Of a stretch of 31,392 bases of DNA, positions 2 to 30,186 are shown one piece after another. A program made the translations under genes and the position numbers. Within the stretch, counting starts at the first letter, position 1; each line of letters starts with the position of its first letter. Origin of the DNA: a virus; the IMG/VR virus record IMGVR_UViG_3300030104_002360, positions 1-31,392 of that record. One strand, 5' to 3'. Below the pieces are notes generated by a model. That model was not told the origin of the DNA, made no database searches, and saw nothing but the letters and a program-made list of their open reading frames with translations.

Positions 2-877
2 AGTAAGGCATACAATTTGCATTTACAAAACTACCCTCTAACTGTACAGGAAGCTTTCCTGAAAACAAAAGGTTCTAGGTTTGATATAGCATTGCTTAAT
101 CAGCAGAGGGCTAGGGTGCAAACACTAGCGCATCCAGAACAACACATTACAACTGGATGTCTTGATTGGGTAATAGACGATAATGGATTAACTAATGAAG
201 TTAAGTTTACGCCCCACCCTCATGGTCCTTATAAAATATTACACGAACCACAACCTCACCTTCAGGGATTAGATGTTGGTGGTATTGACTCGTATGATCA
301 AGACGAGGCTGGGGCATCAGAATCAATGGGTTCTGCAATTATATTTAGAAGAATAGCAGACACTAATCAACCTTATAGATTACCAATAGCTGAATATACT
401 GATAGACCTGAAACAGCAGATCAATTTTATGAGGGTTGCTTAAAGCTTGCAGTGTATTATAATGCAAAAATGCTAGTTGAATATACAAAAATTGGTATAT
501 TGGACTACTTTTTGAGAAATAGAGCTCAAAAGTATCTCAAGACTAAACCTAGATCAGCACATTCACCTGGTACTAAAACCAGAAACAATTATGGTGTGCA
601 TATGAATAAGCAAGTTAAAGCATATATGGAGTCGTTAATGTATGACTACATAAAAGAAAGAGGAGACGAAATCTGGTTTATAGACCTATTAGATGAGCTA
701 TGTGATTGGGGTTCACGCAACACGGATAGAGCAATTGCATTTGGTTTGTGTTTAATCCACGAAAATGATAACTTTGCAATTGAAGTTAAAGATAGAGAAA
801 AAGAATCTATAAAAGAAAGCGGATTTGTATATTATAAATACGATAATAATGGAATACCTGTTAAACACACAAGATAA
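2..877 (+). CDS. Terminase large subunit (TerL), C-terminal part, partial
   Basis: This is the 3' end of the packaging motor gene. The reading frame is open to the first bases of the window, so the gene starts upstream, and the TTG at 17 is an internal Leu codon rather than a start. NYPLTVQEAF just after the window edge matches the segment that joins the ATPase and nuclease domains of large terminases (P.t..EAF). The remaining 250 residues fit the RNase H-like headful nuclease: GGIDSYD (first Asp at base 287) would supply the first metal ligand, and NTDRAIAFGL near the end fits the third acidic motif. The ATPase Walker motifs lie outside the window. The stop overlaps the portal start by one base (TAATG), so translation is probably coupled. 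The family assignment is firm; the individual catalytic residues are inferred. Confidence 0.87.
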   Translation, partial: SKAYNLHLQNYPLTVQEAFLKTKGSRFDIALLNQQRARVQTLAHPEQHITTGCLDWVIDDNGLTNEVKFTPHPHGPYKILHEPQPHLQGLDVGGIDSYDQDEAGASESMGSAIIFRRIADTNQPYRLPIAEYTDRPETADQFYEGCLKLAVYYNAKMLVEYTKIGILDYFLRNRAQKYLKTKPRSAHSPGTKTRNNYGVHMNKQVKAYMESLMYDYIKERGDEIWFIDLLDELCDWGSRNTDRAIAFGLCLIHENDNFAIEVKDREKESIKESGFVYYKYDNNGIPVKHTR

Positions 878-3054
878 TGAAGAACTTTCCTAGTCAACTA
901 CTACCTGATTCTAAAAAAGATAAGAAGTGGTGTGAACATATGCTTGATGCAATTGTTAATCACACTGGTCATGTAGATAGTCCTGAGAACAGGTATCAAT
1001 TAAAAGATGTAAGAAATTACGACATATATAATGGTGACTTTAATCGAGATGATTATAAATACCTTACAGAGCAATATGGGTATAACTATCCAGCTCGACT
1101 AGTTAATTACCCAATAGTACAACCTAAAATAGATTTATTATTAGGTGAAGATTTACATAGACCTTTAGATACCAAAGTCGTAACCATAAACCAAGAAGCT
1201 ATTAATAGAAAAGAAGACCAGAAAGTAACTATGGTCATGAATAAGCTTTTAGGTGAAGTTAAAGAGGAGATGAAGAAGTTAGGTATGGATGTTAAAAATG
1301 AAGGGCAGGAAATTCCTATCCCAGATGACATCGATACTTTTATGAGGTACAACTACAGAGAGTCTATAGAAGAAGCTGTTCAAGATGGATTAGAGTTTTT
1401 AACTAATAAATATAAGATTAAAAACAAATTCAAGGAGGGCTTTAGGGATCTACTAATAACTGGTAAGGAGTGCTATCGCGTAGAAATTAAGGATGGCGAC
1501 CCACAGGTTAGGCGCGTAGACCCAAGGTCACTCTGTTATGACTTGACTAGTGAGACTGACGATTTAGGTGAGGCTAACTGGGTAACAGAAGAAAGGTGGT
1601 TATCACCCAGTGATATTATAGATGAGTTTGGCGAGCAGTTAGATGATAAGCAAATACGTCTTATAGAATCTATGTCTCAGCAAAACAAAATAGATCAGCA
1701 TTCTGAATATAGAAATTGGTATGCTAGAGGTGAGTCGGGTGAACTTAGGGTAAAAGTTGTTCATGCTGAATGGAGATCTTTAAGAAAGATACAGTATAAG
1801 TTAAGCCCTAACAAACATGATAATGAGAAGCCGTTTAGAAAGATGGTTTCTGATAAATATAGAAAACGTAAAGGTGAAAAAGTTCGTAAAGTTGTTGTTG
1901 ATGACATTTGGCAGGCTACAAAGATTGGTGGTTCGATTATGGTTAATTGTCAGCGAGTTCCTAATCAAGTACGTTCTTTAGATGACCCTAGTGCGGCTAA
2001 CTTAAGTTATATTGGTGTAGTAAGAAATCATACAACAGGTAATCCTGTTTCTATGGTTGACTTACTTAAAAATGTGCAAATGCTTTATAATATTACTATG
2101 TATCACATAGAGTTATCTATGGCTAGATCAGGTGGTAAAGCAGTTGTTTATGATGTAGCTCAAATGCCAGCCAATCTTGGAATGAATATGCAGGATATAA
2201 TGTATCATATTAAAAATGATGGTATTATACCTATTAATTCTAAGGATGAGGGTTTACAGGCGCAAACATTTAATCAATTCCAGCAAATAGACTTTACATT
2301 GTCTAATTCTGTACAGCAACTTATAAATTTAAAAGTTATGCTGGAAGATATGGCTGGTCAAGTGTCTGGTGTTACTAGACAGCGTGAAGGTCAGGTAGAG
2401 CAATACGAGCAAGTTGGCAATCAACAAAGAGCTGTTGTACAATCCGCAACTATTACTCGATCTTGGTTTTGGTCACATGACATGGTTAAACAAGATGTAT
2501 TAATGCGTTGCGCTAACCTTATGAAAATATGTTGGAGTACAGGCAAAAAAACTGCAACAGTATTTGGTGATGGAACTTATAAGTTTATATCTATATTACC
2601 AGAAGTATCCTTAAATGACTATGGTGTATTCTTAGGTGATGGAGGTAAAGACGAAAGAATGAAAGAAGCTGTAACTCAATTAGCTCAATCCGCTCTTCAA
2701 GGTGGTCAAATAGATATGTTAGATGTTGTAAGAATATTTAAATCTGATACTTTAACTGAAGCGGAGCATATATTAGAAAAAGGCTTAGAGGCTGCAAAAG
2801 AAATGCAAGCTCAACAGCAACAAGCAATGCAAGAGCAGGCTCAAGCAGAAGCTGAAGCTAAAGAGCGTGAATTACAAATAGAAGTTGAAATGAATCAGCT
2901 TGATAATGATACTAGAATTAAGGTTGCTGAAATTCAGCATCAGTCTAAATTAGAAACAGCAGAAATACTTTCTGATGACCAGTATGGTACAAGAAAAGCT
3001 GATGCTGCGCTAAACCAAATGGAAGGACAACTTAAAGGACAGATTAAAAATTAA
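877..3054 (+). CDS. Portal protein
   Basis: This 725-residue protein directly follows the terminase and precedes the scaffold-like and capsid genes, which is the standard position of the portal. The portal forms the dodecameric ring through which DNA enters and leaves the capsid. The N-terminal half has motifs common in podovirus-type portals: NYPIVQPKIDLLLGED near residue 80 and a long mixed alpha/beta stem and wing region. The last 90 residues, from about 640, are rich in Gln, Glu and Ala (QAQQQQAMQEQAQAEAEAKE) and should form a coiled coil, as in portals with a long C-terminal barrel. The length is typical of crAss-like portals. The start is the ATG in the TAATG overlap with terminase. I assign it from position and overall character; no single motif is diagnostic. 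Confidence 0.85.
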   Translation: MKNFPSQLLPDSKKDKKWCEHMLDAIVNHTGHVDSPENRYQLKDVRNYDIYNGDFNRDDYKYLTEQYGYNYPARLVNYPIVQPKIDLLLGEDLHRPLDTKVVTINQEAINRKEDQKVTMVMNKLLGEVKEEMKKLGMDVKNEGQEIPIPDDIDTFMRYNYRESIEEAVQDGLEFLTNKYKIKNKFKEGFRDLLITGKECYRVEIKDGDPQVRRVDPRSLCYDLTSETDDLGEANWVTEERWLSPSDIIDEFGEQLDDKQIRLIESMSQQNKIDQHSEYRNWYARGESGELRVKVVHAEWRSLRKIQYKLSPNKHDNEKPFRKMVSDKYRKRKGEKVRKVVVDDIWQATKIGGSIMVNCQRVPNQVRSLDDPSAANLSYIGVVRNHTTGNPVSMVDLLKNVQMLYNITMYHIELSMARSGGKAVVYDVAQMPANLGMNMQDIMYHIKNDGIIPINSKDEGLQAQTFNQFQQIDFTLSNSVQQLINLKVMLEDMAGQVSGVTRQREGQVEQYEQVGNQQRAVVQSATITRSWFWSHDMVKQDVLMRCANLMKICWSTGKKTATVFGDGTYKFISILPEVSLNDYGVFLGDGGKDERMKEAVTQLAQSALQGGQIDMLDVVRIFKSDTLTEAEHILEKGLEAAKEMQAQQQQAMQEQAQAEAEAKERELQIEVEMNQLDNDTRIKVAEIQHQSKLETAEILSDDQYGTRKADAALNQMEGQLKGQIKN

Positions 3055-4202: not shown

Positions 4203-5738
4203 ATGAAAACAACATCTGGAACGTTTGGGATTGATACTCAAGCGTCAAATTCGTTGGTAAGTGCTATGTTAAAGTATCCTGAAATTGGATCTACTTTAAT
4301 TCAGCAATACCCTCGTTTTGCACTAACGTACTTATTAGAAAGAACAGGTCGTTTTGCAAACGTAAAAGTAATGGGCGATAAATCTTTCGAGTGGAAAGTT
4401 TTAGGTCGTTCAAATCGTGAAATTAAATTAGCTGATATTACAACTATTACAGCTGCAGCAGCAAGTGCAACAACTGTACTTTTACCTGTCCTTAATAGAG
4501 ATTTATCTATTAATGACGTAGTAATGATTGGTAACGCTGTTGGTACTGTAATTGGCCATACAGAAGATGATGGTACAACAGTAAAAACAGATACTAATAA
4601 ACCGCCTGTTGGTCAAGCATTAGCTGCTCAACTTCAAGGTCACACAATTGCTACAGCTGATGCGTGGGGTTATCAAATTAGATTCTCTAAGGGTTATGGT
4701 GCTAGTGCACTTGCTTCTGGCGCTATTGTTGCTCGTTTAGGTTCTGCTTTTGGTGAAGGTTCTTTAGGTACTTCTGTATCTGAAAGCACTGCTTACCCAG
4801 AAACTCATAAAAACTGGTTAACATTAAACAGACGTAAGCAATCTATTACAGGTTCTGCTTTAACTGATGTTACTTGGATTGAAAACAATGGATCTAAATT
4901 GTGGTACTTTACTGCAGAGAAATTGTTTACTGATGAGTTTATGTATCAATTAGAGCTTCAACGATGGTTCGGTAGAAACAACGTTGGTACTGCTGTTGAT
5001 GCTTATACTTTCCCAGGTCACGCTGGTGCTGTTGATGCTAGTGCTTCTGCCTTAATGGGTGATGGTATTTTAGCTCAAATCGAAGGTTCTATTGATATGA
5101 CTTACAATGTTGGTAGTGCTGCTGGTGAGGGTCTTACAGAAGACAAATTAGCTCGATTTATTGCAGAGCTTTCTCGTAACGCTAAATCTCCTGAAGGAAA
5201 CGAATGGGTAGTATTTACTGGTACAGAAGGTCGATACCAATTCCACAGAGCTATGAAAGATATTTCTGTTGGAGCTTCTGTTGTTAGTGGTGCTGCTGGC
5301 GCTGCTTCTGGCGGATCTATGCAGTCTATGAAAACTGGTTCTGATGTATCTTTAGGTGTTAACTTTGTATCTTACTATGTATTAGGTAATAAACTTACTA
5401 TTGCTTACTGCCCAGTATTTGATGACGTTAATGCTTTTGGTGCTGAAGCTGGTGCTGGTGGAGATGGTTCTGGTGGAACTATGTCTGGTAAAATGGTATT
5501 CTTAGACTTCTCGTCTGTAGATGGTGTACCTAACATTCAGTTAATTGCTAAAGGATCTGATGGTCTTAACCGTAACTATGTGAAAAAATACATTCCTGGT
5601 ATGGTTAACCCTTACGATCAAAAATCAATGTTGGCTGCTAACGGTGACGACTCATTCACATGTCAAATCATGTCTGAATCTGGAATTATTGTTCGTAATC
5701 CTTTGTCTTGCGGTATTTTAAGTGCTGTACATGCATAA
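4203..5738 (+). CDS. Major capsid protein
   Basis: This 511-residue protein forms the icosahedral shell. Its place after portal and scaffold-like genes, its length (close to the roughly 490-510 residues of crAss-like capsid proteins) and its composition (rich in Gly, Ala, Ser and Thr, few Cys) all fit an HK97-fold capsid protein. The N-terminal 70 residues contain LKYPEIGSTLIQQYPRFALTYLLE, an arm-like helix, followed by a beta-rich region (FEWKVLGRS) resembling an E-loop. A Gly/Ala/Ser-rich stretch lies at residues 355-375 and another Gly-rich loop at 415-430. The C-terminus, IIVRNPLSCGIL, resembles the P-domain ending common in phage capsids. Codon use is more optimised than in its neighbours (many GCT, GGT and TCT codons), as expected for an abundant product. 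The HK97 fold is inferred; I cannot model it here. Confidence 0.85.
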   Translation: MKTTSGTFGIDTQASNSLVSAMLKYPEIGSTLIQQYPRFALTYLLERTGRFANVKVMGDKSFEWKVLGRSNREIKLADITTITAAAASATTVLLPVLNRDLSINDVVMIGNAVGTVIGHTEDDGTTVKTDTNKPPVGQALAAQLQGHTIATADAWGYQIRFSKGYGASALASGAIVARLGSAFGEGSLGTSVSESTAYPETHKNWLTLNRRKQSITGSALTDVTWIENNGSKLWYFTAEKLFTDEFMYQLELQRWFGRNNVGTAVDAYTFPGHAGAVDASASALMGDGILAQIEGSIDMTYNVGSAAGEGLTEDKLARFIAELSRNAKSPEGNEWVVFTGTEGRYQFHRAMKDISVGASVVSGAAGAASGGSMQSMKTGSDVSLGVNFVSYYVLGNKLTIAYCPVFDDVNAFGAEAGAGGDGSGGTMSGKMVFLDFSSVDGVPNIQLIAKGSDGLNRNYVKKYIPGMVNPYDQKSMLAANGDDSFTCQIMSESGIIVRNPLSCGILSAVHA

Positions 5739-16385: not shown

Positions 16386-16386
16386 T

Positions 16387-18348
16387 ATGGCTATAGACTA
16401 CGGAGCTATGCAAGCTCTAACACAAATATTTCAAGGAACATCTCAAGCAAGAAGAGCAAGAAGACAGGAAGTCGCTCAATTGCAAAACGAGATGTACCAA
16501 ATGGAGCAAAGAGAATTGCAAAACGCAAATCTTGTTGCTAGCGAGCAGGCTACAATAGAAAAGTCTAGACAAGATTACTTAAAAACTGTTCATAACATCC
16601 CTCACATGAGGGATTACGTCAACAACTTTTTTGACGAAAAGTCTGCTGAATTTAAAGGTATACTTAAAGAATATAATGGTAGATATTCTAGCGCTATGTC
16701 TAGTGGTAAAGTTTTAGACTTTAGAGATGGTATTATGGCAGATTTACAAAGAACAGATAAATATCAAAAAGCTGTTAGGTCTGCTTCTGCGTTAGCAAAT
16801 TTTGATGCATACGAAGTAGGTAAAGACGGTAGAGGTGTTTCTACAAAAGGATTATTATCTGAAAGAGATAGAGAGCGTAGAGCTGCGTACTTAAGAGGTG
16901 AGTTAGATGAGTTTTCTCTAACTGGCTTAAGAACTGAATATGATGCAGTAGAGGCTGCAGATCATTATCAAGGAACTAAACCTGACTTTGATGAGATATA
17001 TAGTCAACAATATCAGGCTGTAGTACATAACTATATGACTGAAACTGGAGATAGAGATTGGTCTGCTTTACAAAAATGGGCAGACACAGACTTTGATGGT
17101 AATACACAAGAAGCTTTAAAAGCCTGGGCTAAAAGAGATATGGGTATGGCTGGTGCTTACGATCAAAACATGAAAGGTACAAAAGAAATTCCTGTTATTG
17201 AGCAAGAAGCTAGAATGAGGAACATTTTAGACACTACTTACGATAATAAATATAAAGCAATTGATGGCATGGACTTTATTATAAGTCAGCCAGCCATGCA
17301 ACAAATGGGAGTAAGTTTAACAGGTATAGAAAAAAAGGGTGATGTACAGCTTTATAGTAAGGGTGTTTTTACTGATTTTCCAGAATCTGTTTTACAAGAA
17401 ATAATAAAACAACGCGGGGCAATAAATGGAATAAAAAGTAACGGAGATGGATCTTATGAGCTTGCTAATATAAAAAATTGTTTTGACGCTAATGGTGCTT
17501 ATGTTGATGGAGCAGAAGCTATTGATAAACATACAAATATGAATTTTGCTGGTATGTATGTAGCAACTAAAGCTGTGTTTGAAATAGAAGGTCCTAACGG
17601 TGAAATAATTAAAAAAGAACAACTAGTTGGAGATACAAGAGATAAAGATTTAAGAAAATCATTAGAAAAACAGTGGGGAGTAAAATATGAAAACATAAAA
17701 ATGGTTCCTACTTTTGTTGCTACATTTGAACACGACAACACTTTAGGTGCTGGATTTGAAGATATGAGATGGTGGGATAAACAAGTTCATATGCAAATAA
17801 ATCCTAAAAGCGGAATGCTAGAAAGAATTATGGATAATACAGGCGTAGAAGAAAGCCTTCAAGCATCACAAAAAAGTGAACAGGTTGTTAATAAGATGCA
17901 AAAATCTAAACAAGAAGAAATACAAAATCATTTAGATTCTAGAAGAGATCAGCAGATGAAACCTGCAAATGAAATATATAATACTCAACAAACAAGTGAC
18001 GGTGAAGCTGTAACTATGACGTTTATGGATGATTATATAACATCATATGCAGATGTTAATTCTTCTGATAAAGCTAAAAAGAATCACTCAATATTAATGT
18101 CTATGGCGTCTCTTAGTGCTATAGATAATAATGACGGTGATTACCCTGGGCAAGTTAAAGCATACTACAGTGCTTTTGATGGGCTGCTAAATGGATCAAG
18201 CAATAACGCAATTAAGTTCCAAAAAGCAGTAGAAGGTGGTAATAGAAAAACTATCTTTGAACTTGTAAATTCAATGTTTAAGAATGTTAGCTTCGATTCT
18301 GAAAAAGCTGAAAGTTTAACTCAGACTTGGTCTAATTATAGAAAATAA
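16387..18348 (+). CDS. Putative cargo/internal virion protein, unrecognised
   Basis: This 653-residue protein starts one base after the transglycosylase gene and ends three bases before the giant gene. The first 80 residues are helical and charged (RRARRQEVAQLQNEMYQMEQ), suggesting a coiled coil. The centre is mixed alpha/beta, including GDRDWSALQKWADTDFDGN (Asp-rich, but not a convincing EF-hand) and a pair of strands around AVFEIEGPNGEIIKKEQLVG. The last 150 residues are helical and polar. I recognise no enzyme motif and no membrane segment. In crAss-like phages, packaged cargo proteins are encoded next to the virion RNA polymerase, and this gene's position suggests the same role, for instance as a partner or chaperone of the giant protein. 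That role is inference only. Confidence 0.58.
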   Translation: MAIDYGAMQALTQIFQGTSQARRARRQEVAQLQNEMYQMEQRELQNANLVASEQATIEKSRQDYLKTVHNIPHMRDYVNNFFDEKSAEFKGILKEYNGRYSSAMSSGKVLDFRDGIMADLQRTDKYQKAVRSASALANFDAYEVGKDGRGVSTKGLLSERDRERRAAYLRGELDEFSLTGLRTEYDAVEAADHYQGTKPDFDEIYSQQYQAVVHNYMTETGDRDWSALQKWADTDFDGNTQEALKAWAKRDMGMAGAYDQNMKGTKEIPVIEQEARMRNILDTTYDNKYKAIDGMDFIISQPAMQQMGVSLTGIEKKGDVQLYSKGVFTDFPESVLQEIIKQRGAINGIKSNGDGSYELANIKNCFDANGAYVDGAEAIDKHTNMNFAGMYVATKAVFEIEGPNGEIIKKEQLVGDTRDKDLRKSLEKQWGVKYENIKMVPTFVATFEHDNTLGAGFEDMRWWDKQVHMQINPKSGMLERIMDNTGVEESLQASQKSEQVVNKMQKSKQEEIQNHLDSRRDQQMKPANEIYNTQQTSDGEAVTMTFMDDYITSYADVNSSDKAKKNHSILMSMASLSAIDNNDGDYPGQVKAYYSAFDGLLNGSSNNAIKFQKAVEGGNRKTIFELVNSMFKNVSFDSEKAESLTQTWSNYRK

Positions 18349-18351
18349 TAA

Positions 18352-21300
18352 ATGCAAGAAGATTTATTAAATTACGCAGATCCTTCATTAATCAATCAAG
18401 GAACAGCTTCACAACCAGAGCAAAGTGAATTAGGTGCAAATCCAATGTTGTCTTCAGATGATTCTGATTATTTAGCACAACAAGCTGCAATTAGTGGAGT
18501 AGAAGAAACTATTAATCCTTTAACATCTGGCTTACAAAAAAGAGATGAACAAGCTACCAATCAAGGCTACGTTGATCCTGAGTTAATGTTTGAAGGCAAC
18601 CTTGAAAAAGGTGCTAAAAGCTTAGTAGCAGGTGTTGGTATTGTTGTTAACGATATAGGCAACATGATTGATTACGCTGCAATGACAATGTTGCCAGATG
18701 AAGTTAGAAAGTCTGATACGTTTATGAATCTTGCAGAAAGATTGCCAAACTTTCATGAGTATGGTGATGCTTTACAAAAATGGGGTGAGGTACACCAATC
18801 TCCAGGTCTTGATGAGTTTACTTTAGATGATATGTTTAAAGCTGAGTTTTGGTTTACTGACGTAGCAAAAACTCTTCCCTACATGGCTGCTATGTTTATT
18901 CCAGGAGCACAAGGTGCTGGTATAGCAAGAGGCCTTATGATGGCAGGAGCAAAATCTGCAGCTAAAAGAGGTTTGTTTGGTTCAGCTAAAAGAATGCTTG
19001 GCGTAAGAGCCGCACAAGAAACTGCTAAAGCAGCAGCTAAAGGCGGAGCAAAAGCTGTTGCAGGTGCTGCAGCAACAACAGGAGGAACAGGTTTGATGGG
19101 TGCACTAGCAACATCTACTGCGGCAGGCGAAATAGGTTTAACATCTTTAGGTTCTGGCCTTGCTACATGGTTGGGTGCTGGTACAGCAAGTACAACTGTA
19201 ATTGGTGCAGGTCTAGCAGGAGACGTGTATAATAGAGCAGTAGATATGGGTATGACTGAAGAAGAGGCTGGTGAAGCTGCTCATGGTACGTTTATAGATA
19301 ACATGGCTTGGATAGGTCTTAATGGTTTATCTTGGGGTGTTCAATTTGGTGGAGTTTCTGGTAGAGCATTTAGAGCTTTTAATAAAATGAAAGGTGGAGC
19401 TCAAACAGCTAATCAACTACAAAAAACTTTTGGGCAAAGACTTATGCAACATGCTCGTAGAGGTGCAGCATCAGGGACGTTTGAAGGTACAGAAGAAATG
19501 TTTCAAGAAACATACGAAACTTGGGTGCAAGAGAAAAATTTAGCAGAAGCTAGAGGTGAAGAGTTTATTTCCTACACAGACTTTTTAACGTCAGACGAAA
19601 ACAGAAAAACACTAGGTGTATCGTTTGCTGCTGGTTTCCTTATGGGGGGTCGTGGTGGATTTATGAATAGTGTTGCAGAAAATGGTAGGAGAATTTTTAA
19701 TAAAAGAGTTTCTATTGATGACGACATTAACATGTATGAAAACATGACTGAAGCTCAAAGAAAAATTAGAACTCTTGAGATTATAGAAGCTGCTGTTAGA
19801 GAAGATCAACTGGATGGTCTTAATGGTACGTTAGACAAATTGCAAAAAGCAGGTAAAATATCTGCAGAAGAAAGAGTTGATCTTGACAATATAATTGTTG
19901 AGTACGCTGAAATAGCAGCTACCCTTCCTTTTAAAGAAAAACTAACAGAGGTTGGACAACAAACTTTGTTTAACTTAAAAGTTAAGCAAAATCAAAATAA
20001 TAAAGCTAAAGCAAATTTAGAAGCTTTAAAAGACAAAAGTTTACAAGAAGCAAATGACAATTTAACTGGTAAAGTCTTAAATGATCAAATAGCTTTAATA
20101 GAAGCAGAGCACGTTGTTAACATGACAAATCTCGAAAACGAGATGAATGAAAATAACGAGGCTGTAGCTAAATTGCTTACTGCTAAAAAATATTCTGAAA
20201 AGAGTAAAGCAGTTGATCAAAAAAGAGTATCAGAAATAAATAAGTTTGTAGAGACTGAGGAGTATGCTAATATGTCTGACTCAGCAAAACAAGATTTATT
20301 ACAAGAAAGACAAAACCTACAAGAAAGAATTAAAGAAGATTCTTATGTAGTTAATGATGCTCTTTCTATGACAGAGTCTGAGTTTCAACAATTTACTACA
20401 GAAGGTGCAGAGCAAAAGGCTGTTGCCGATAAAGAAGCTGCCGAAGCTGCAGGTTTAAAAGCAGAACAAGCAGCAGAGAAAAGTAAAGAAAAAGCTAAAT
20501 CTTTATTTGAAAAAGGTAAAGAGTTATTTGGTAAAGCATATAATGCAACTAGAGATTTTGCAAAAAAGCAAGCACTATCATTTAAAGAAAGTTCAGCTAT
20601 AAAAAGAGTTACTAAGCCTATAACTGAAGATATACAAAAACTTGTTGATGAAGGAAAGTCAGCAGAAGAAATATCTGAATTTATAAAAAGTAAATTAACT
20701 CCTGAGCAAATAGAAAAATCTGGCCTTACAAAAGAAAGATTAAATGAGCTTATAGATGAAGCATCTGTATTTTATACTGGTGCTAAACCTGAAGGTGAAG
20801 CTGTAGAAGTTGAGGCAGAAGAAAAGTTAAAAACAGATCCTAAAACACCTACAGTTACAGACGATGAAGTCTTTGATGAAATAAAAAGAAGACGTAAAGA
20901 AGCTGGTAAGAAAGGTAAAGGATCTGGTATAGAAGGGGTTACAACGCAAGAAGAAGTAGATGCTGTAAGAGAAGAATTAATTAAAGCTAAACAAGATGCA
21001 GAAGCAGAATCAGTTATCCCAGAAGGACAAGAACAAATTAACCCAGAAGAGGCAGAGAAAGAATCACAGAAAAGCGCTGAGCAAGCTAAAGAAGAGTCTC
21101 AATCGACAGTAGATAGTGTTTTAGAGTTTGCTAAAAATGTAGCTAAGAAAAGTAAAAAACTTTTATCTCGAAAAGAAAATAAAGAGTTAGACAAAGCTAT
21201 TACTGATCTAGGTAAAAAGTGGAAAAAAATTCTTCCAAAAGTAAAAAGTAAAAAACTAAAAGTAGAAGACGAAACGACTAAAGGTACTTTGTCTTATTAC

Positions 21301-24300
21301 GCTTCTATAAATCCAGGTCTACACGGAGCAGTTATGGATGCTGCATCAAAAAAGTTTCCTGACAAGCAATTGTTAATATTACGAAACGTTATTGATGAAT
21401 ATGGAGAGCAAGTTGGTGGTTACGCTATGGGTTCTGCTGTATTAGCAAAAGAAGGATCTGATCTAGCTCTTAGAATAATGCACGAGTATGGTCACGTTTA
21501 TTACGATATGCTAAAAGACAATCCATCTTTTATGCGTGGAGTAAATAAAATTATAGGAAGTGATATTTATAATGATGTTAAAAAACAATACCCAGAATTA
21601 ATTTTATATAAAACATCTGACGGAAATATTGTTAGTGCTGGAGATTTAATAACTCAAGTAGAAAGTAGTAGACTTGTAGAAAATAAAAAATACAAAGAAA
21701 CTATTGAGGCGTTTAGAGAAGCAGTTAAAAGTGGTGATGGAGAGGCTATAAATTCTTTGGCTAATAATCTTTTAAATAAATTACAGGAAGATGGTGTTGC
21801 AAAAGTTTTACCAGATGAGCAACAAGTAGACATTATAGAAGAAGCGTTTGTTACATCATTAGCTCCTCAGCTTGCTACTAAATTAGATTTGTTATTTGAA
21901 AAACCTGCAGAAGCTAAAGAGTATAAGTCTTTTATTAGAAGAACTACAGAAAGAGTTGCAAAAATGTTTACTCCTTCTGATTCTAAAAAAATATTATCCG
22001 AGGTAGATAGAAGTTTTGAAAATCTTACTACAGATGAAATGTATAGTAAAATAGCAGATGATTTTGCTAAAGGTACGCAGGGCGGTAGTTTAAAATTCCA
22101 AAAATCTAGATCGAAAAGATTAAAGTTAAATAGAACATTTTCAGCGTCAATAGCCGTTGCGATGAATAAGATGACTCCAAATATGTATAACACAATGAGT
22201 ATACAAGAGTTATCTAAAACAGCGATTGATTTTGCTACACAATACTCTAAGTCTGTTGGTGAAGAAGTAAAAATTACAAAAGAACTTAGAGAGGAAGTTG
22301 AAAATAGATTACTTAGACATCAAGAAGCGTTAAAAGGATTTTCTTTATCTCCTTCTGGAAAAACTAATGGTGTATCTGATATTTATAAAGCAGCGGGAAT
22401 GAAACAAAATCTTCCTAGCGATTCAGAGCAACAACAAGAAAACTTTGAAGAAGTAGAAACTTTATTAGAAGATTCTGATTTAGGTTCTGATTGGTATATG
22501 TCCCCTGAAAAAGCAATGGACAATTCTACATCAACTTTTATTACTGCTATAATGAAAATAGCAAATCCTAATAGTAAAGGAGTGTACAAAAAATCAAGAC
22601 TAGAGGCAGGGTTATTAAGTATGGCTCATGCTAATAGAGATAACGTTAATGATTTTACTAGATCTTTTATGAGTTCAAGTGATCCTCATATTAAAAAAGC
22701 TAGAGAGATAATGAAGGAAAGACTTTCTGAAGGAGAAATGCTTTCTGCTATTAGAGATATTCACAACAACTACAGAAATAAATTTATAGAGTCAATATTA
22801 AATACAACTGTAACTAGTGATGGTGCTATATCTGAATCTGTAGCTATACATGATTCTGAAAGAAATAGAGTTAATACTATGAAGAGAAGAGGTAATGAAA
22901 TTTTCTTCAAAGGTAAATCTATGTTAAAAAGTGTTGTATTAGATAAAATATCTGCAGCACAAGCAAAAATAAAAAAAGGTCAAAAACTATCTCAACAAGA
23001 AAGTGTAGAGATTGCAGCGGCTATTTTAAGATCAGTAGAAGGTGTAGATAATTATTTAGATTATGATCAACTAGCAAACATAAGATTGTATAGAGGTAAT
23101 AGACTTTTAAATATACAAGACTACATAACTGATATTATATCAGATAAAAGTTTGATTGACAAAAAGACTGGTAAAACTTATTTATCTCAAGGAAAAATTC
23201 CTGTTATGAATATGGTTCCTTTATTTAAAAGTATGGTTATAGCGTCTAGAGGTAAAAATGCTATTAAATCTGTTTTAGATGTTAATGGTAATATGACTTT
23301 AGGTTTTAATTATAATAACAATTTACTTAATAGTGTTGATGTTATAATTAACATGGCTAAAAGTCCAGAAGGTAGAAAAAAATTAGCGCAAAAATATTTA
23401 AAGAAAAGAAAAGGTAAGCTTGTTGGTAATCCATTTATTGAAATGGTTATTGGTCTTGGTGTTAATGGTATGGCAGACCAAGCTTATCAAATAGGTTTTG
23501 ATGGTGGCGTTATTTCTTACAGAGATGGTGACGGTAAAGGTGTAAAATTTGAGCAACAAACTAAAGATGATATTGTTCAGTTTGATATGGAAAAATTTGC
23601 GTCTAATTGGGATTCAAGAAAGCCTGGAAAAACTAGAAGCTTTTACACTCAGCCAATAGCAATTTTTGCAAACTCAAAAAGAAGATACTCTATTGCTGCT
23701 CCAATGGCTACTACTGAAGCACAAAAACAAAAAGTAATAAGTGGTTTAATTGCAAAAAAAGATCACAAAGTAAAATATAAAGATGGTGAGTTAGCTTTAG
23801 GTTTTGAAATAAAAGCTAATGGTAAGTATGATATTTCTCCAGAAGTTTCTAAAATGAAACAATGGTTTTATGGCAACCCTAATTTAATTAAATCAAACAA
23901 AGTTTTATCTAAATATGCAACTGTTTCTGGTGATAGAGTTACAATAACATTAGAAGGAGAGCAAATGATAGAAGACTATGTATTTAATTACATGGTAAAT
24001 AGTTATTATACACAACAGCTTTTTGTTGGTAAACACGCACAAGCAAAAAGTCAATCTGATTATATAAAAAGAGCTACAGGAGCTATAGCAAGACACGATG
24101 GTTCTATGAGGGGAGTTGCTATTGAGCCAATGATATATAAAGATGTAGATGAAAATGGTGTAAATGCCACTGATGCTGGTGCATTCATATTACCTGAAGA
24201 CGTTCCTATGATCCAGGACAGAGTTAGTAATAATGTCGGTAGAGGATTTAAGTTTGTTTATTATGGTAGTGATATGCGTGTAGATGATGAAAACACAAAC

Positions 24301-27300
24301 ATGGTTGGTGATGAATCAATAGCAGATCAAGATTATTATTTTAAAACATATGTGCATGTACTAGACCCTGAGTTTATTGCAGATTCTCCAGAATTACAAA
24401 AAATAGAAAGAGAATTAAGAGCTAGAAAGAAATTTAATAATAACCAACAAAACATGTTTGGTGAAGTATTAAATATAGCAATGTATGAAAGCGCTGCTAA
24501 AAAAGCTCCAGCAATACATGGGACATCAGCGTCTGCTGAAAGTTTTGAAGAAGGCTCAGAAGCTTGGAATCAACTTAATGACGCTTATATGTCTGGAGAT
24601 AAAGTTGTTGGTATTGATGGTGCTAACATGGGTATACAATTACCTATGGATAAATATAGAGAAGAGGTTGTAGAGCCAACACAAATGTCTGCAGCAGACT
24701 TAAATGAATTGACACCTGAGCAAGTTGAAAACATGCAGGAAATATTAAAGCTAAGACAAGAAGCTTTAGATTTAGCTCTTGAAGAAGCTGCAGGGGATAT
24801 TTTATCTGAAGGAATAGATGCTACTCCAGAAGCACGAGCTAAGAGTAAAAAAGCAGTTACAGATAAAATAAGTAAAAGTTCTGTAGCCTCTACATTTAAT
24901 GGTATAGCAAGATACCAAGCTATAACAAATCCTAGAGTAAGTCAAAACTTGCCTTCACTATCTAAGTTTTATGGTAATAGCATTAGAAGTTCTGTAAAAA
25001 AATCTTCTAAAGTTATGACCGCTGGTACAATAGCGATACAAGGTGTTGCTGTAGGTAAAGGATTAAAAGGGTATTTTGATGAGAATGGAAATGAGTACAT
25101 AGGTATGAGATATGAAGTTCAGCCTGATGGTACTACAATTAAAAAACGTGCTATACTGCCAGCAGAAGCAATTGTTCCAGCTGGTTTAAAAGGTAAATAT
25201 TTTGCTAGAGTTGATAAAGAATTTAATAACGAAACTGAAGCAAAAAGATACGCTGATAGTTTAGTTGTAGATAGAGCAGCGTCTAGCAATGTAGACAAGG
25301 CTGGTGTTAGAATAAAAGGGTTAAATAGAAAATTTCCTAGCGCAAGAGCAGCTAAAGAATTTTTATACAATAAAATTGCTGTTCAGCCTGATGGTAAATT
25401 TATTATTCTTGGTGATGAGTTTTTTGGACCTCGTGTTCCTGCTCACGGAAAACAATCTAAACCTATTATGGAAATTAAAGGTTTCCAAAAAGAAGTTTTA
25501 GATAAGAATGGTAAACACTTAAACAATCATATACAAGTTTCACCAGAAATAAATAGAATATTAGGTTCAGATCATGATGGTGATAGTTTGTTTATAAATT
25601 TACCTTATGATAATCCTAAAACTAAAAGACAAGAAAAAGTAAACGAGCTTTTAGATAAGCAGTTTAAGTTCTACAGAAATGTTGCAATGTTTGATTTATT
25701 GACCGCATCAATGGAATATGAAGCTGATGTTGAGGCTAGAATAAAATCTATAGAAAAGAAAAATCCTAACAGAGCAAAACGATCTTCACAAACATCGCCT
25801 ATAGGTGCTTCTGAGTTTTTTGAAGAAAATGTTCAAGGTAGTGGAATGATTGGTACTATTGCTGCTCTTAATAACGGTATGTCTTATACTGCAAGATATG
25901 GTGTTGAGTTAGGTGTTGAAGGCGGTATAACTGTAGATGGTAAAACTGTAGAAAAATTTCAAGACGACACAAGCCGTATAGGTAAAGAATCTCTTTCTTT
26001 TAAAAATGCAGTATTATTAAACATAGCGCTAGATAATACAAAAAATCAACACGCAACTGCTTTAGGTATGAATCCTTCCACTATAAGTGCTGTAGCTCTT
26101 ATGACTAGATTAGGATTTGATAGTTCTTCTTTAGATTCTATATTTACTTCTAAAGCTTCAGAATTGTACGCTAAATTTAAAGGTAAAAAAGCTTTAAAAG
26201 ATCAAACGTTTATTAATACTAATGAAACAAGCGCTGCGGTATTAGCATATATGAATATGTTTGGAGGTACAGCAGAACAAGCAAGAAAAGCTCTTGATAA
26301 CGCTATTGCTTTAGGAGGTATTAATATAGACACATCTTTAATTACAGGTAAAGATATTGATCAAATGACATCAGATGAGAAACAACAAATGGTTTCTATA
26401 CTTGCGATGTTTGAAGTATCAGAAGGTGTAACTAAAGATATTTATGCTATTAATAACATGCTTGGGCAACACAAAAACGTTGCTTACAATGAGCATGAAG
26501 CAAATAAACAAATTTCAGATTTTAATGACATTATAGGGGGTAGAAGTTCTCTAAAAGGTAATGGTTTAACAGAGCTCAACAATAACCCTATAATAAAATC
26601 TTATAAAGATAGATTAACAAAAACATCTGCTATATATCAAAGTAATAATATTACAGGTACAAATCACGCATCTAGGACTATGGAGTTAATAGAAAACTTA
26701 ACTGGTAATGAAAATATAGCTAGAAGAGATGGTGACGAGCAAAGTAAAATTGTTAGAGATGTATTTACTAATACTCTTCAGAATACAGTTCCTATGTTTA
26801 AAAAGACATTAAAACATTTAGGTAATTTTGAAGGAGATCGACCAGAGCCAAAGGTTAATAAGGTTGTTAGAAACTTACAAGAAAAAATCCAAGAAAGAAA
26901 TTTGGAAGACAATTTATTTATTCAAGCAATTGAATTTGGTTTTTATGAAGGTTATGGTAATAACATGGATAAATATACTTTAAAACCAAATGTAGATTTT
27001 ATAAATGAGTATACTACTGACGGTGAAATTTTAGCAATAAGAAAAGCTTATAGTGAATTACCGTTAGACGTTCAAGAAGATATATTTATAGTTGATTCTA
27101 TAGTTAATGAGTTAGGATATAGAAATACATCTGTTCAACCTTTGTTTGATATGAAGACTTTAGAAAAGTTAAGCGAGGAAATTGATACAGTACATCAAGA
27201 AGTTTTAGATGATCTTTCTGACATAATTAGTCCTGAGTTAATGGCTGAGTCTATTATATTAGATAATCCTGAAATTATACCTACAGCCGCAAGAATACAT

Positions 27301-30186
27301 GCTGGGACTTCAGGTTCTAAATTTATAAAAGGATACGGAACAATAGCTAGAATAGGGACAGAATTAAGAAATGGTATACCTGTAAGAATTAAGGCAGTAG
27401 ATGTGGCTAATAAAGCACAGAAAGATTTGATGATAACAAATCAACCGCACTACGTTAAAATAGGAATACCAGGAAAAGGGATTGCTGTTTATAAATACAA
27501 ACCATTTAATGAAGCTAAAGTAAAAGGCGGAAAAGCAAGTAAACTTGATCAAGCTAAAAAATATGGTTCGTATAAGTTAGTTGATGTTGTAAAACCAGAC
27601 CCTAAAAAACGTAAACAAAAAAGAAGTGAAGGAACTAATCTTTTGAAGATGCAAAACATGGCAAAGAAAAAGCCAACAATAGCTAAATCTAAAAAGATGA
27701 AATTCTCACACAGTAGAAGTTCTGAGTTTACTGGATACAGCTCTGCTGATGCAGAAATGTTTAGCTTTGAAGAGTACCTTGAAGATAAAGGACATAACGT
27801 CAGGAGCGTTATGAAGAACAAGGTCTTAAAAGAAGCAATGGAGTCGCTCTATAAAAACTATGTCGCAAATTTTAATTTAGCCCAGGAGTTTGACCGAACA
27901 ATCATTCAAACTGGGAGAATTAAAACACTCTCAGAAGAAAAACTATATGATTACGCATCGGTTATGCAAAAGCTTGATCCTAGCGCGTTATCTTTTGCTC
28001 ACAAGGCTGTTGTATTAGAATTAGCTAAACGTGCATCAGAAGCTCAGAAAGCGTCTCGTAATGGTATAGACTGGACAGATAAGGGTGACATATCTTGGTT
28101 GCATGCTTGGTTTGGGTCAAACAATATTCCTGGGCACAGACCAGAAATTCAAAACTTAGTTCGTACTATGGAAAAAGAGTACGGAAAGTTTATGGAAGAA
28201 AATATTAAATTTCAAACTGAACTTGATAGGCTTACTAAAAATCTTATTAGAAGTAAGATAGCAGAAGGTGTAGGTCCTGCATCTAAAGTAGCTGAAGGTT
28301 TTAGATGGATTATGGGTTCTTATCCTAGCTGGACTGGGTACACCCAAAAAATGTATGAAAACATGTACGATAAAGTAGATGTTGAAATGAACGGAATAAA
28401 AACTCAAGAGTTAAAATTAAAAACAACAAAAGATTTTTTAGCTACAAAACCAACACAGGCTGAGGTAGAATTTTATACGTTCTTTAAAGAAACTACAAAC
28501 AAGTATGGTAGAGTAACACAACAAGCTCTTGGTGAAAGATATAAAGAAGGTTATATTCCTCATATTAAAATGGGGCTTTTTGGCTCTATAAAACAACGAG
28601 GTCTGTTTGGCCTTTATGATTATATGCTTCAAGGTACTGGAGATATTAATCATGTAAAAGTTAAAGGATATAATCCTATGACTGGTAAGCAAGAGATTTT
28701 ACCATTCCACCAATGGAAATTGGTATATTATTCTGCTAAAGGTACAAAAGGTGGGCTTAAAAGCTTAGTAGATAAAAAGCAATTTAAATCTGCTGCAAAA
28801 TTAGATATAATTAGAAAGCGTGCTGAAAAATTAGCAAAGCAAGGTAAACACGATGATGGAAGTAATATATCTATGACTGAACAGGAAGTTCACGGTACTA
28901 TGGGTACTAATTTAATGTCTAGGTTTACCAAGTCAAGAGGTGTAAGATCGGCAATGTTTGCTAGTGAAGATTTAGGAATGGCTCTTTCTCAGTATGTTAA
29001 CACTACATTGTTTACATATGGTAATGAAAACTTCAAAGGTTTTAAATCTATGACACCATTATTAGACGGTGTAATAGAATATAATAAAACCAAAGGAAAT
29101 AAAAATGCAGTTACATATTTAGAAAATGTTTGGAAAAAAGGATTTTATACATTTAAAGATAGTCAATTTGGATTAGGTAGATTAGGTGATAATGCGTTAC
29201 ATCAGCTAGTTAAATTAACTCGTATTAGATATTTATCTCTTGGAGTAGGTGGAGGTTTTGGAAACTTAATGGTCGGTAAATACAATGAGTTTAGGTCTAA
29301 AGGTGGTAAAAATTTCTTAAGAGGAGAATCAAGATATTGGGGTCAACGTAAAAAGGCTTGGGCATTAATTAAAAAACAATTGAACCCTGAGAAATTTGCA
29401 TATGACTTAATACAGGGTAATGATTCATCAGGTCTTGATACAATACTTATGTCTCCATATATAGGTTCAGAACACTATATTCAGGGTTCTGGATTTGTTT
29501 CTCAATTCACAGAAGAAGAATGGAGCAGAATAAGTGAAGACGGAGAAATACCTGCAGACCTGCAAGATAAAGTTGATCTTTATGTAGATAACGTAACAAG
29601 ACAACAAGGTTACGGTTACTCTAAAGTAGATCAAATTGGTATTGCTACTTATTCTTGGGGTAAAGCAATTATGCAGTTTAAGAAATGGATGCCTACATCT
29701 ATAGCTGAAAGATTCCAAAAAGAAACTATAGATAGATTTGGTGAGATGAGATCTGGTAGCAATAGAGAGGCTTTTATATTTGGAGCTGATTTTACTAGAA
29801 AATTAATAGCAGGAGAAGAGTCTATTAGTAATTTTAGAAAAAGATTTAATGAGCTTCCTAAAACAAAACAGGAATCTGTAAAAACATTCTTTAGAGGTAT
29901 GCAAGTTGTAAGTGCTTTAACTGTTCTTTCTATGCTATTTGGAGAATCAGATGACGAAGAATTAAGAGGTTTAGCAAGCGTAGCATCAGACACTAGAGAT
30001 GACATAATGTTTATGACAGATCCTAGAAGATTAAAGTATATGGCAGAGCCTGCATCTTGGAGTCTTGTAGAATCTGGCGCAACAATGGCTGTAGGTATCG
30101 CTACTGTAGATGAAGCTAAATTTGTTGGGGGGCTTAGAGGTGTTAGCTGGACTGCCGCTCAAGTGCTTCAAGAGTCAAAAAGTTAA
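18352..30186 (+). CDS. Giant multidomain virion RNA polymerase polyprotein (3,944 residues)
   Basis: This gene fills 38% of the window. Residues 175-345 are Ala/Gly-rich and hydrophobic, possibly membrane-active. Residues 457-780 are charged coiled coil, and 807-920 are acidic. Residues about 980-1215 hold a zincin-like peptidase with HEYGH (1044-1048) and a possible third ligand at Glu1163/1164. A KFxxSRS motif follows at 1248-1254. The RNA polymerase part has a beta-like NGVNATDAGAFI (1936-1947) and KKSSK (2216-2220). Its beta'-like RVPAHGKQS (2361-2369) and DHDGD (2407-2411) align with the RAPTLHR and NADFDGD blocks of cellular beta'; the three Asp residues would bind catalytic magnesium. 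A second KFxxSRS lies at 3117-3123, within a basic stretch, followed by 820 unrecognised residues. Virion RNA polymerases of crAss-like phages (phi14:2 gp66) transcribe early genes after ejection. Whether this one is cut into parts is unknown. Confidence 0.84.
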   Translation: MQEDLLNYADPSLINQGTASQPEQSELGANPMLSSDDSDYLAQQAAISGVEETINPLTSGLQKRDEQATNQGYVDPELMFEGNLEKGAKSLVAGVGIVVNDIGNMIDYAAMTMLPDEVRKSDTFMNLAERLPNFHEYGDALQKWGEVHQSPGLDEFTLDDMFKAEFWFTDVAKTLPYMAAMFIPGAQGAGIARGLMMAGAKSAAKRGLFGSAKRMLGVRAAQETAKAAAKGGAKAVAGAAATTGGTGLMGALATSTAAGEIGLTSLGSGLATWLGAGTASTTVIGAGLAGDVYNRAVDMGMTEEEAGEAAHGTFIDNMAWIGLNGLSWGVQFGGVSGRAFRAFNKMKGGAQTANQLQKTFGQRLMQHARRGAASGTFEGTEEMFQETYETWVQEKNLAEARGEEFISYTDFLTSDENRKTLGVSFAAGFLMGGRGGFMNSVAENGRRIFNKRVSIDDDINMYENMTEAQRKIRTLEIIEAAVREDQLDGLNGTLDKLQKAGKISAEERVDLDNIIVEYAEIAATLPFKEKLTEVGQQTLFNLKVKQNQNNKAKANLEALKDKSLQEANDNLTGKVLNDQIALIEAEHVVNMTNLENEMNENNEAVAKLLTAKKYSEKSKAVDQKRVSEINKFVETEEYANMSDSAKQDLLQERQNLQERIKEDSYVVNDALSMTESEFQQFTTEGAEQKAVADKEAAEAAGLKAEQAAEKSKEKAKSLFEKGKELFGKAYNATRDFAKKQALSFKESSAIKRVTKPITEDIQKLVDEGKSAEEISEFIKSKLTPEQIEKSGLTKERLNELIDEASVFYTGAKPEGEAVEVEAEEKLKTDPKTPTVTDDEVFDEIKRRRKEAGKKGKGSGIEGVTTQEEVDAVREELIKAKQDAEAESVIPEGQEQINPEEAEKESQKSAEQAKEESQSTVDSVLEFAKNVAKKSKKLLSRKENKELDKAITDLGKKWKKILPKVKSKKLKVEDETTKGTLSYYASINPGLHGAVMDAASKKFPDKQLLILRNVIDEYGEQVGGYAMGSAVLAKEGSDLALRIMHEYGHVYYDMLKDNPSFMRGVNKIIGSDIYNDVKKQYPELILYKTSDGNIVSAGDLITQVESSRLVENKKYKETIEAFREAVKSGDGEAINSLANNLLNKLQEDGVAKVLPDEQQVDIIEEAFVTSLAPQLATKLDLLFEKPAEAKEYKSFIRRTTERVAKMFTPSDSKKILSEVDRSFENLTTDEMYSKIADDFAKGTQGGSLKFQKSRSKRLKLNRTFSASIAVAMNKMTPNMYNTMSIQELSKTAIDFATQYSKSVGEEVKITKELREEVENRLLRHQEALKGFSLSPSGKTNGVSDIYKAAGMKQNLPSDSEQQQENFEEVETLLEDSDLGSDWYMSPEKAMDNSTSTFITAIMKIANPNSKGVYKKSRLEAGLLSMAHANRDNVNDFTRSFMSSSDPHIKKAREIMKERLSEGEMLSAIRDIHNNYRNKFIESILNTTVTSDGAISESVAIHDSERNRVNTMKRRGNEIFFKGKSMLKSVVLDKISAAQAKIKKGQKLSQQESVEIAAAILRSVEGVDNYLDYDQLANIRLYRGNRLLNIQDYITDIISDKSLIDKKTGKTYLSQGKIPVMNMVPLFKSMVIASRGKNAIKSVLDVNGNMTLGFNYNNNLLNSVDVIINMAKSPEGRKKLAQKYLKKRKGKLVGNPFIEMVIGLGVNGMADQAYQIGFDGGVISYRDGDGKGVKFEQQTKDDIVQFDMEKFASNWDSRKPGKTRSFYTQPIAIFANSKRRYSIAAPMATTEAQKQKVISGLIAKKDHKVKYKDGELALGFEIKANGKYDISPEVSKMKQWFYGNPNLIKSNKVLSKYATVSGDRVTITLEGEQMIEDYVFNYMVNSYYTQQLFVGKHAQAKSQSDYIKRATGAIARHDGSMRGVAIEPMIYKDVDENGVNATDAGAFILPEDVPMIQDRVSNNVGRGFKFVYYGSDMRVDDENTNMVGDESIADQDYYFKTYVHVLDPEFIADSPELQKIERELRARKKFNNNQQNMFGEVLNIAMYESAAKKAPAIHGTSASAESFEEGSEAWNQLNDAYMSGDKVVGIDGANMGIQLPMDKYREEVVEPTQMSAADLNELTPEQVENMQEILKLRQEALDLALEEAAGDILSEGIDATPEARAKSKKAVTDKISKSSVASTFNGIARYQAITNPRVSQNLPSLSKFYGNSIRSSVKKSSKVMTAGTIAIQGVAVGKGLKGYFDENGNEYIGMRYEVQPDGTTIKKRAILPAEAIVPAGLKGKYFARVDKEFNNETEAKRYADSLVVDRAASSNVDKAGVRIKGLNRKFPSARAAKEFLYNKIAVQPDGKFIILGDEFFGPRVPAHGKQSKPIMEIKGFQKEVLDKNGKHLNNHIQVSPEINRILGSDHDGDSLFINLPYDNPKTKRQEKVNELLDKQFKFYRNVAMFDLLTASMEYEADVEARIKSIEKKNPNRAKRSSQTSPIGASEFFEENVQGSGMIGTIAALNNGMSYTARYGVELGVEGGITVDGKTVEKFQDDTSRIGKESLSFKNAVLLNIALDNTKNQHATALGMNPSTISAVALMTRLGFDSSSLDSIFTSKASELYAKFKGKKALKDQTFINTNETSAAVLAYMNMFGGTAEQARKALDNAIALGGINIDTSLITGKDIDQMTSDEKQQMVSILAMFEVSEGVTKDIYAINNMLGQHKNVAYNEHEANKQISDFNDIIGGRSSLKGNGLTELNNNPIIKSYKDRLTKTSAIYQSNNITGTNHASRTMELIENLTGNENIARRDGDEQSKIVRDVFTNTLQNTVPMFKKTLKHLGNFEGDRPEPKVNKVVRNLQEKIQERNLEDNLFIQAIEFGFYEGYGNNMDKYTLKPNVDFINEYTTDGEILAIRKAYSELPLDVQEDIFIVDSIVNELGYRNTSVQPLFDMKTLEKLSEEIDTVHQEVLDDLSDIISPELMAESIILDNPEIIPTAARIHAGTSGSKFIKGYGTIARIGTELRNGIPVRIKAVDVANKAQKDLMITNQPHYVKIGIPGKGIAVYKYKPFNEAKVKGGKASKLDQAKKYGSYKLVDVVKPDPKKRKQKRSEGTNLLKMQNMAKKKPTIAKSKKMKFSHSRSSEFTGYSSADAEMFSFEEYLEDKGHNVRSVMKNKVLKEAMESLYKNYVANFNLAQEFDRTIIQTGRIKTLSEEKLYDYASVMQKLDPSALSFAHKAVVLELAKRASEAQKASRNGIDWTDKGDISWLHAWFGSNNIPGHRPEIQNLVRTMEKEYGKFMEENIKFQTELDRLTKNLIRSKIAEGVGPASKVAEGFRWIMGSYPSWTGYTQKMYENMYDKVDVEMNGIKTQELKLKTTKDFLATKPTQAEVEFYTFFKETTNKYGRVTQQALGERYKEGYIPHIKMGLFGSIKQRGLFGLYDYMLQGTGDINHVKVKGYNPMTGKQEILPFHQWKLVYYSAKGTKGGLKSLVDKKQFKSAAKLDIIRKRAEKLAKQGKHDDGSNISMTEQEVHGTMGTNLMSRFTKSRGVRSAMFASEDLGMALSQYVNTTLFTYGNENFKGFKSMTPLLDGVIEYNKTKGNKNAVTYLENVWKKGFYTFKDSQFGLGRLGDNALHQLVKLTRIRYLSLGVGGGFGNLMVGKYNEFRSKGGKNFLRGESRYWGQRKKAWALIKKQLNPEKFAYDLIQGNDSSGLDTILMSPYIGSEHYIQGSGFVSQFTEEEWSRISEDGEIPADLQDKVDLYVDNVTRQQGYGYSKVDQIGIATYSWGKAIMQFKKWMPTSIAERFQKETIDRFGEMRSGSNREAFIFGADFTRKLIAGEESISNFRKRFNELPKTKQESVKTFFRGMQVVSALTVLSMLFGESDDEELRGLASVASDTRDDIMFMTDPRRLKYMAEPASWSLVESGATMAVGIATVDEAKFVGGLRGVSWTAAQVLQESKS
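21481..21495 (+). other. HEYGH zinc metallopeptidase motif in the giant protein
   Basis: Residues 1044-1048 read HEYGH within LALRIMHEYGHVYYDML, which matches the HExxH zinc-binding helix with hydrophobic flanks. Glu1045 would be catalytic. The acidic pair at 1163-1164 (IIEEAFVTSLAP) lies about 115 residues downstream and could provide the third ligand, as in several phage polyvalent-protein peptidases. Confidence 0.65.
22090..22113 (+). other. Junction motif 1 (LKFQKSRS) in the giant protein
   Basis: Residues 1247-1254 sit in a basic stretch between the peptidase region and the polymerase region. The same pattern recurs at 27697-27720 as MKFSHSRS. It is a candidate linker or processing site; no cleavage is shown by the sequence. 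Confidence 0.4.
24169..24180 (+). other. Beta-like barrel motif (TDAG) of the RNA polymerase
   Basis: Residues 1936-1953, NGVNATDAGAFILPEDVP, resemble the GYNxEDS/A segment of the cellular beta subunit and the TDAQ segment of phage giant polymerases. This would mark the first double-psi beta barrel. KKSSK at 2216-2220 may give the conserved Lys residues. The alignment is by eye. Confidence 0.45.
25570..25584 (+). other. DHDGD catalytic motif of the RNA polymerase
   Basis: Asp2407, Asp2409 and Asp2411 form DxDGD, the metal-binding signature of double-barrel RNA polymerases. It follows RVPAHGKQS (bases 25432-25458) at a spacing close to that between RAPTLHR and NADFDGD in cellular beta', and is followed by SLFINLPYD, which matches QMAVHVPL. 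Confidence 0.82.
27697..27720 (+). other. Junction motif 2 (MKFSHSRS) in the giant protein
   Basis: Residues 3116-3123 close a Lys/Arg-rich linker (from about 3084) between the polymerase part and the C-terminal 820 residues. It repeats the KFxxSRS pattern of junction motif 1. The sequence then changes to an acidic start (DAEMFSFEEYLEDKG) resembling a new domain N-terminus. Confidence 0.4.

Follow-up and report, generated by a model that had tools for sequence, protein, structure and literature searches.

The window analyzed here, a 31,392-nucleotide stretch of viral DNA, encodes a giant protein of 3,944 residues (18352..30186, + strand) that, by sequence comparison, is a single-chain fusion of three cargo proteins encoded by separate genes in phages phi14:2 and crAss001. 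The three modules are an amino-terminal module A that contains a zincin-like metallopeptidase region, an RNA polymerase (RNAP), and a carboxy-terminal module C. In relatives that carry the modules as separate genes, the protein ends that face a gene break almost always bear a cysteine, and the near-absence of cysteines elsewhere points to A-RNAP-C being kept as one covalent chain, held by a peptide bond or a disulfide. This pattern suggests that selection keeps the modules linked, not separated. We read the giant protein as a single-chain transcription cargo, with its modules linked as A-RNAP-C and probably left uncut in the virion of the window's phage, and assign this reading a probability of roughly 0.68.

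The window is a 31 kb fragment of a crAss-like phage. Its major capsid protein, which is of the Crassvirus type (4203..5738, + strand; Pfam PF23898, E 8e-36), places it in the crAss-like phages (Crassvirales). Its portal protein (877..3054, + strand) is ~27-31% identical to crAss-like portal genes in tblastn comparisons and matched 135 records, crAss-like for the most part. The giant protein has no cysteine. The products of the 854- and 653-residue genes that precede it (13821-18348 of the window) are also nearly free of cysteine (0 and 1, respectively), versus six cysteines in the portal protein and 11 in a 1,501-residue protein.

Profile comparisons match the modules of the giant protein to three separate proteins, with the RNAP in the middle. 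The conserved amino-terminal part of module A (aa 60-460; 18529..19731, + strand) is related to phi14:2 gp078, and an hhalign alignment joins aa 158-696 to gp078 residues 155-722 with 96.8% probability. The zincin-like metallopeptidase region (aa 985-1240; 21304..22071, + strand), recognized by alignment, contains HEYGH at 1044-1048 and a conserved Glu pair at 1163-1164 (E1163/E1164). The HExxH motif is kept in 58 of the 60 fused homologues that have this region. Two fused homologues (L026, HEYGGH; L091, HEYTGH) have HExxxH in its place, a variant mentioned also for the zincins of polyvalent proteins (PMC5512222).

The RNAP core (aa 1880-2600; 23989..26151, + strand) is related to phi14:2 gp077 and crAss001 gp50. 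Aligned by hhalign, with aa 1873-2609 placed on gp077, it reaches probabilities of 98.1-98.6%, and its profile homology to the phi14:2 virion RNAP (gp66, which is gp077 in KC821624) and to crAss001 gp50 has E values of 9e-14 and 9e-16, respectively. The catalytic DxDxD-type motif, DHDGD (aa 2407-2411; 25570..25584, + strand), lies in a GSDHDGD stretch at 2405-2411 whose D positions are invariant across 10 aligned homologues. A predicted model of aa 2385-3580, which covers the carboxy-terminal RNAP part, matches the phi14:2 structure 6VR4 (E 4e-7) over 721 columns, a number close to the distance from the start of the model to linker J2 (see below). Module C (aa 3134-3944; 27751..30183, + strand) is related at its end to phi14:2 gp076 and crAss001 gp49 (aa 3604-3941, 96.6-98.2% probability by hhalign), the stretch placed on gp076 being aa 3615-3940. 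The RNAP and C profile matches extend to Suoliviridae and Intestiviridae. Other searches returned no significant or relevant match: Pfam and PHROGs for the giant protein, tblastn of its aa 1-2990 against annotated phages, a fold search of a model of aa 975-2135 against the PDB, and a search of the A6 profile against PDB sequences. On profile homology and catalytic motif, the window's polymerase is predicted to be a crAss-like two-barrel virion RNAP.

Between the modules lie two linkers, J1 (aa 1241-1259; 22072..22128, + strand) and J2 (aa 3108-3133; 27673..27750, + strand), both predicted to be disordered (pLDDT <50) in AlphaFold models built on alignments of ~50 homologues. An initial annotation of the window had noted a KFxxSRS motif at these places, occurring as LKFQKSRS (residues 1247-1254; 22090..22113, + strand) and MKFSHSRS (residues 3116-3123; 27697..27720, + strand), and had described the two sites as basic linkers that flank the RNAP, the first just after a metallopeptidase-like region. 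This description is borne out. Both motifs are present in the ORF, HEYGH and the Glu pair precede the first, and the sites fall at the borders between modules that match different proteins. The very low AlphaFold confidence at 1241-1259 and 3108-3133 indicates that both motif sites probably lie in flexible linkers between folded modules. J1 and J2 are the best candidates for the positions of the gene breaks in split relatives, although these positions are approximate, as the detectable homology does not extend into the linkers. The idea that translation also starts internally, at M3116, found no support: ATG occurs at J2 in 23 of 54 cases versus 0.46 in random windows, and is thus not enriched.

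The same modules are arranged among crAss-like phages in four gene plans, which can be written A/R/C, AR/C, A/RC and ARC, with R for the RNAP and a slash for a gene break. The division of the modules into separate genes, which the initial annotation had suggested looking for in relatives, is indeed seen in phi14:2, crAss001 and others. In phi14:2, the genes of gp078, the RNAP gp077 and gp076 lie side by side, and proteomics underlies the annotation of their products as virion proteins. In crAss001, gp47, gp49 and gp50 (262.5, 154.5 and 276.9 kDa, respectively) have been detected in virions by mass spectrometry (PMC10172136). The wider family assembled from IMG/VR comprises 66 non-redundant giant proteins, most of which carry A, the zincin, the RNAP and C in a single ORF. 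Read with table 11, the annotated giant genes of two relatives (cr60_1 and cr4_1) contain 55 and 38 in-frame stops, respectively, which indicates that a stop codon is read as an amino acid there.

Cysteines are scarce in the fused family, which contains 13 in 237,491 residues, and none was found in J1 (60 linker windows) or J2 (54 linker windows). The split relatives were scored over the last 14 residues for carboxy termini and the first eight for amino termini. Among 22 public genomes, all 28 upstream carboxy termini that face a break have a cysteine, as do 27 of 29 break-facing amino termini as annotated, or 28 of 29 with one start corrected (that of the bajarodcaudo C protein, which begins MAKSC). 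The RC protein of crAss002 lacks an amino-terminal cysteine. Outer termini have none (0/20 amino termini and 0/21 carboxy termini). The only four cysteines in the 5,398 residues of the phi14:2 proteins, at gp078-1797, gp077-3, gp077-2179 and gp076-3, all face a break. Similarly, crAss001 gp47 has a single cysteine at position 2339 of 2341 residues and gp49 a single cysteine at position 5, the facing ends of gp50 carry C5 and C2404, and seven aligned Steigviridae RNAPs have an invariant cysteine near each end.

Two scans of IMG/VR added 159 loci, including a small number that duplicate public genomes (L174, for instance, is crAss001). Among the 77 non-redundant RNAP ORFs with another giant ORF after them, 75 have a carboxy-terminal cysteine, compared to 1.36 expected from their own cysteine counts, and in 72 the last cysteine lies within five residues of the end. 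The protein that follows the RNAP has an amino-terminal cysteine in 73 of the 77 cases; of the four exceptions, one has a cysteine at residue 9, one has no start that would be plausible there, and two (L305 and L322) come after RNAP ORFs that look broken. The outer carboxy termini of C proteins have a cysteine in only 2 of 69 cases, and it is absent from the carboxy termini of all seven ORFs of more than 5,000 residues that have no giant gene after them and are presumably fused to C. At the A-RNAP breaks, 27/33 and 28/33 ends carry a cysteine; these counts become 27/29 and 28/29 with the post hoc exclusion of four fused AR genes that come after another kind of cargo gene, of ~920 residues. For comparison, the other ORFs of the IMG/VR loci contain 0.81% cysteine, and in 11.6% of them a cysteine falls among the last 14 residues.

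The rule also holds where A is encoded on the opposite strand (crAss001, cr128_1 and DAC17), and is thus not a translation signal. A nucleotide-level or translational signal behind the terminal cysteines was rejected on this ground, and also since the cysteine lies at variable distances from the stop, from one to nine residues. As a control, an endonuclease ORF interrupts the RNAP of bajarodcaudo in an intron-like manner, and the ends so created have no cysteine. Relatives with break-facing cysteines and few elsewhere are L028, L029, L032-L039, L162-L173 and L174-L332. The literature searched, to which the main phi14:2 paper (Drobysheva et al. 2021) did not belong, holds no report of terminal cysteines or disulfides in crAss-like cargo and, to our knowledge, the cysteine rule is new.

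Several other cysteines in the cargo region were noted. A smaller cargo-region protein of Fpv3 (ANB40432), which starts MKKKCATKKK and has its only cysteine at residue 5, is possibly another tethered end. Only two cysteines, eight to nine residues apart, occur in cargo protein C1 and in the products of genes at similar positions (L028 gp45, 390 and 398; L029 gp080, 369 and 378; L163 gp030, 224 and 232), and they perhaps form an internal bridge. A thioredoxin-like gene is annotated near the transcription block in four split-type neighborhoods (L163, L168, L172 and L173).

We propose that the cargo travels as one linked chain, both when it is packed into the capsid and when it is threaded through the narrow tail, and that the linkage would preserve the order A-RNAP-C. 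In fused phages a peptide linker would join the modules; in split phages a disulfide between terminal cysteines would replace the peptide bond, and the reducing cytoplasm of the host would open the disulfides and free the polymerase. The KFxxSRS motif would be part of the linker, and the window's chain would stay uncut in the virion. We lean somewhat towards extending this scheme to the Crassvirales, in which the ejected transcription proteins would form one covalent train, A-RNAP-C, with disulfides that form during or after assembly and are reduced in the host, and with linkers in place of the dropped cysteines in fused forms. The pairing of A with RNAP and of RNAP with C follows from the order of the fusion, as all facing ends bear a cysteine. 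We know of no phage for which a redox-releasable tether for protein ejection has been described. The bacterial cytoplasm is reducing during assembly, so cargo disulfides could form only at a late stage. The tail channel measures less than 50 Å across (PMC10172136), and the cargo is therefore thought to pass partly unfolded. Disulfides between other virion proteins of crAss001 have been seen by cryo-EM, and the crAss001 paper discusses them only for gp57 and the tail proteins, with none between cargo proteins (PMC10172136). Cysteines are multifunctional and no bond has been seen here, so the terminal cysteines, the rule for which is itself solid, may instead serve to bind metal, to carry a lipid or as a docking point for another protein of the virion. 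We regard this as unlikely, as the presence of one cysteine on each facing end, and of none at outer ends or fused junctions, fits a bond between two partners better.

A point against an uncut chain is the zincin, whose active site is conserved and must therefore do something, self-cleavage being an obvious candidate. The linked-chain reading argues against cleavage in the virion and is still compatible with later clipping. The chain may, for instance, be delivered uncut, after which the zincin would clip J1 and J2 in the host and free the RNAP, as the counterpart of disulfide reduction. Such clipping would explain why linkage is selected for and why HExxH is conserved, it would act on disordered and hence accessible linkers, and it is among the roles proposed for zincins of this kind (PMC5512222). 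It is nevertheless rather unlikely, in our estimate, since phi14:2 gp078 lacks HExxH and the P23-45 virion RNAP is part of a fused protein (PMC10770324).

The repeat of the motif exceeds chance weakly at best. KFxxSRS is absent from all other + strand ORFs of at least 150 residues in the window. Within the giant protein, 183 pairs of 7-mers share at least five residues, compared to 131-170 when the sequence is shuffled as a whole and 121-145 when it is shuffled in 60-residue blocks, and shuffling only J1 and J2 of the window gives 5/7 identity in 4.7% of trials. Homologues at 50-92% identity to the window protein were compared at the two sites, and only the nearest relative (L006, 92% identity) keeps KFxxSRS at both. 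In relatives at 50-60% identity, site 1 reads KFKTGKAK or ALQSSKSK, or is deleted, and site 2 reads LKFSNTKT, MKMNNTRS, MKLNTTKS or MKFYNSKS. In the fused family outside the window's clade, KFxxSRS was not found at these sites. Recurrence of the motif at the domain borders of relatives, which the initial annotation had looked to as support, thus fails, and lack of conservation was an outcome that it had itself named as counting against its proposal. The near-chance statistics and poor conservation make it probable that the repeat arose by coincidence in linkers rich in Lys and Ser, without function of its own, which is compatible with the linked chain proposed above. The retention of K-[FML]-x-x-[ST]-[KR] at site 2 in relatives at 50-60% identity, with flanks that vary in length, is less easily explained in this way.

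The initial annotation had gone further and proposed a possible self-processed polyprotein. On such a reading, the zincin or another virion peptidase would cut J1 and J2 during maturation and release A, the RNAP and C, and KFxxSRS would be this clade's form of a fast-evolving cleavage site. The peptidase and the modules of that proposal are real. The zincin lies directly upstream of J1, self-processing has been proposed for polyvalent proteins that contain zincins, and DdrB of phage P1 is processed before packaging (PMC5512222). In addition, matching J1/J2 elements occur in other clades: PRGRFSRS/PRGRFKRN in L089 (near 1268 and 2989), NYKRKLF/NYKRNLY in L099 (1162 and 2708), FYLKTAEQS/FYLKSEDQS in L136 (1092 and 2968) and KRAKKAAF/KRAKKAF in L152 (1306 and 3088). 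These elements were found nearly only at the two linkers, RAKK of L152 occurring once elsewhere too, and they hint at a site common to both. Across 18 clades, the similarity of a protein's own J1 and J2 exceeds that of cross-clade pairings (permutation p 0.006). However, p is 0.07-0.08 after normalization, narrower windows give 0.11 or 0.01 according to the null used, and the similarity is nothing special for the window itself. In the KAKK clade, a PSSM of J2 ranks J1 among the top eight positions in 12 of 14 proteins, which is not counted as proof because the 14 are close relatives. A general cleavage signal shared by J1 and J2 stands out in a few clades and is not robust across them, and was therefore retained only as a rival. 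KFxxSRS is unconserved, its repetition is near chance, the terminal cysteines of the split relatives suggest that the parts are held together rather than cut apart, and the N4 virion RNAP, which contains a zincin as well, is packaged unprocessed (PMC5512222). Taken together, cleavage in maturation appears quite improbable.

How a polymerase of 250-450 kDa is packaged, passes along a tail channel of less than 5 nm and is refolded in the host is a question for both crAss-like and N4-like phages. The near-universal two-cysteine rule makes a linked ejection train directly testable on the cultured phages crAss001 and phi14:2. It also offers a reason why all combinations of split and fused genes are found for the same three modules, and recasts the earlier prediction of cleavage as a clear contrast, between modules held together and modules cut apart.

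Among known systems, phi14:2 has the same three modules in the same order (gp078, the virion RNAP gp66 and gp076), as three genes with terminal cysteines, whereas the window has one fused chain that is free of cysteine. The crAss001 proteins gp50 and gp49 are homologous to the window's RNAP and module C, and gp47 has the order of module A, with HExxH in its carboxy-terminal part, although it has no significant sequence match to the window protein. Unlike the window, crAss001 encodes the modules as separate genes, with A on the opposite strand and a cysteine at each inner end. Giant delivered RNAP proteins are also known from N4 (~3,500 aa, with a zincin), whose polymerase is unrelated and has other fusion partners, and from P23-45, whose differently built polymerase is fused to a tape measure protein (TMP) instead (PMC10770324). 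These two serve as precedents for large virion RNAPs that are left unprocessed or occur as fusions. DdrB of phage P1 and polyvalent proteins with zincins resemble the window protein in having a zincin within a multidomain delivered protein (PMC5512222); the window protein differs in that it has no conserved cleavage motif.

Fused RNAP genes and zincins have already been described in crAss-like phages. The fused RNAP genes of Yutin et al. 2021 (PMC7886860) join proteins of the transcription block, as in the window, and the Carjivirus annotation 'RNAP catalytic subunit fused to unknown RNAP subunit' likewise denotes a fusion within this block. Those examined are two-way fusions (AR or RC), whereas the family of the window, represented by dozens of non-redundant environmental proteins, is fused three ways. 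The three-way fusion in the window is thus a new form.
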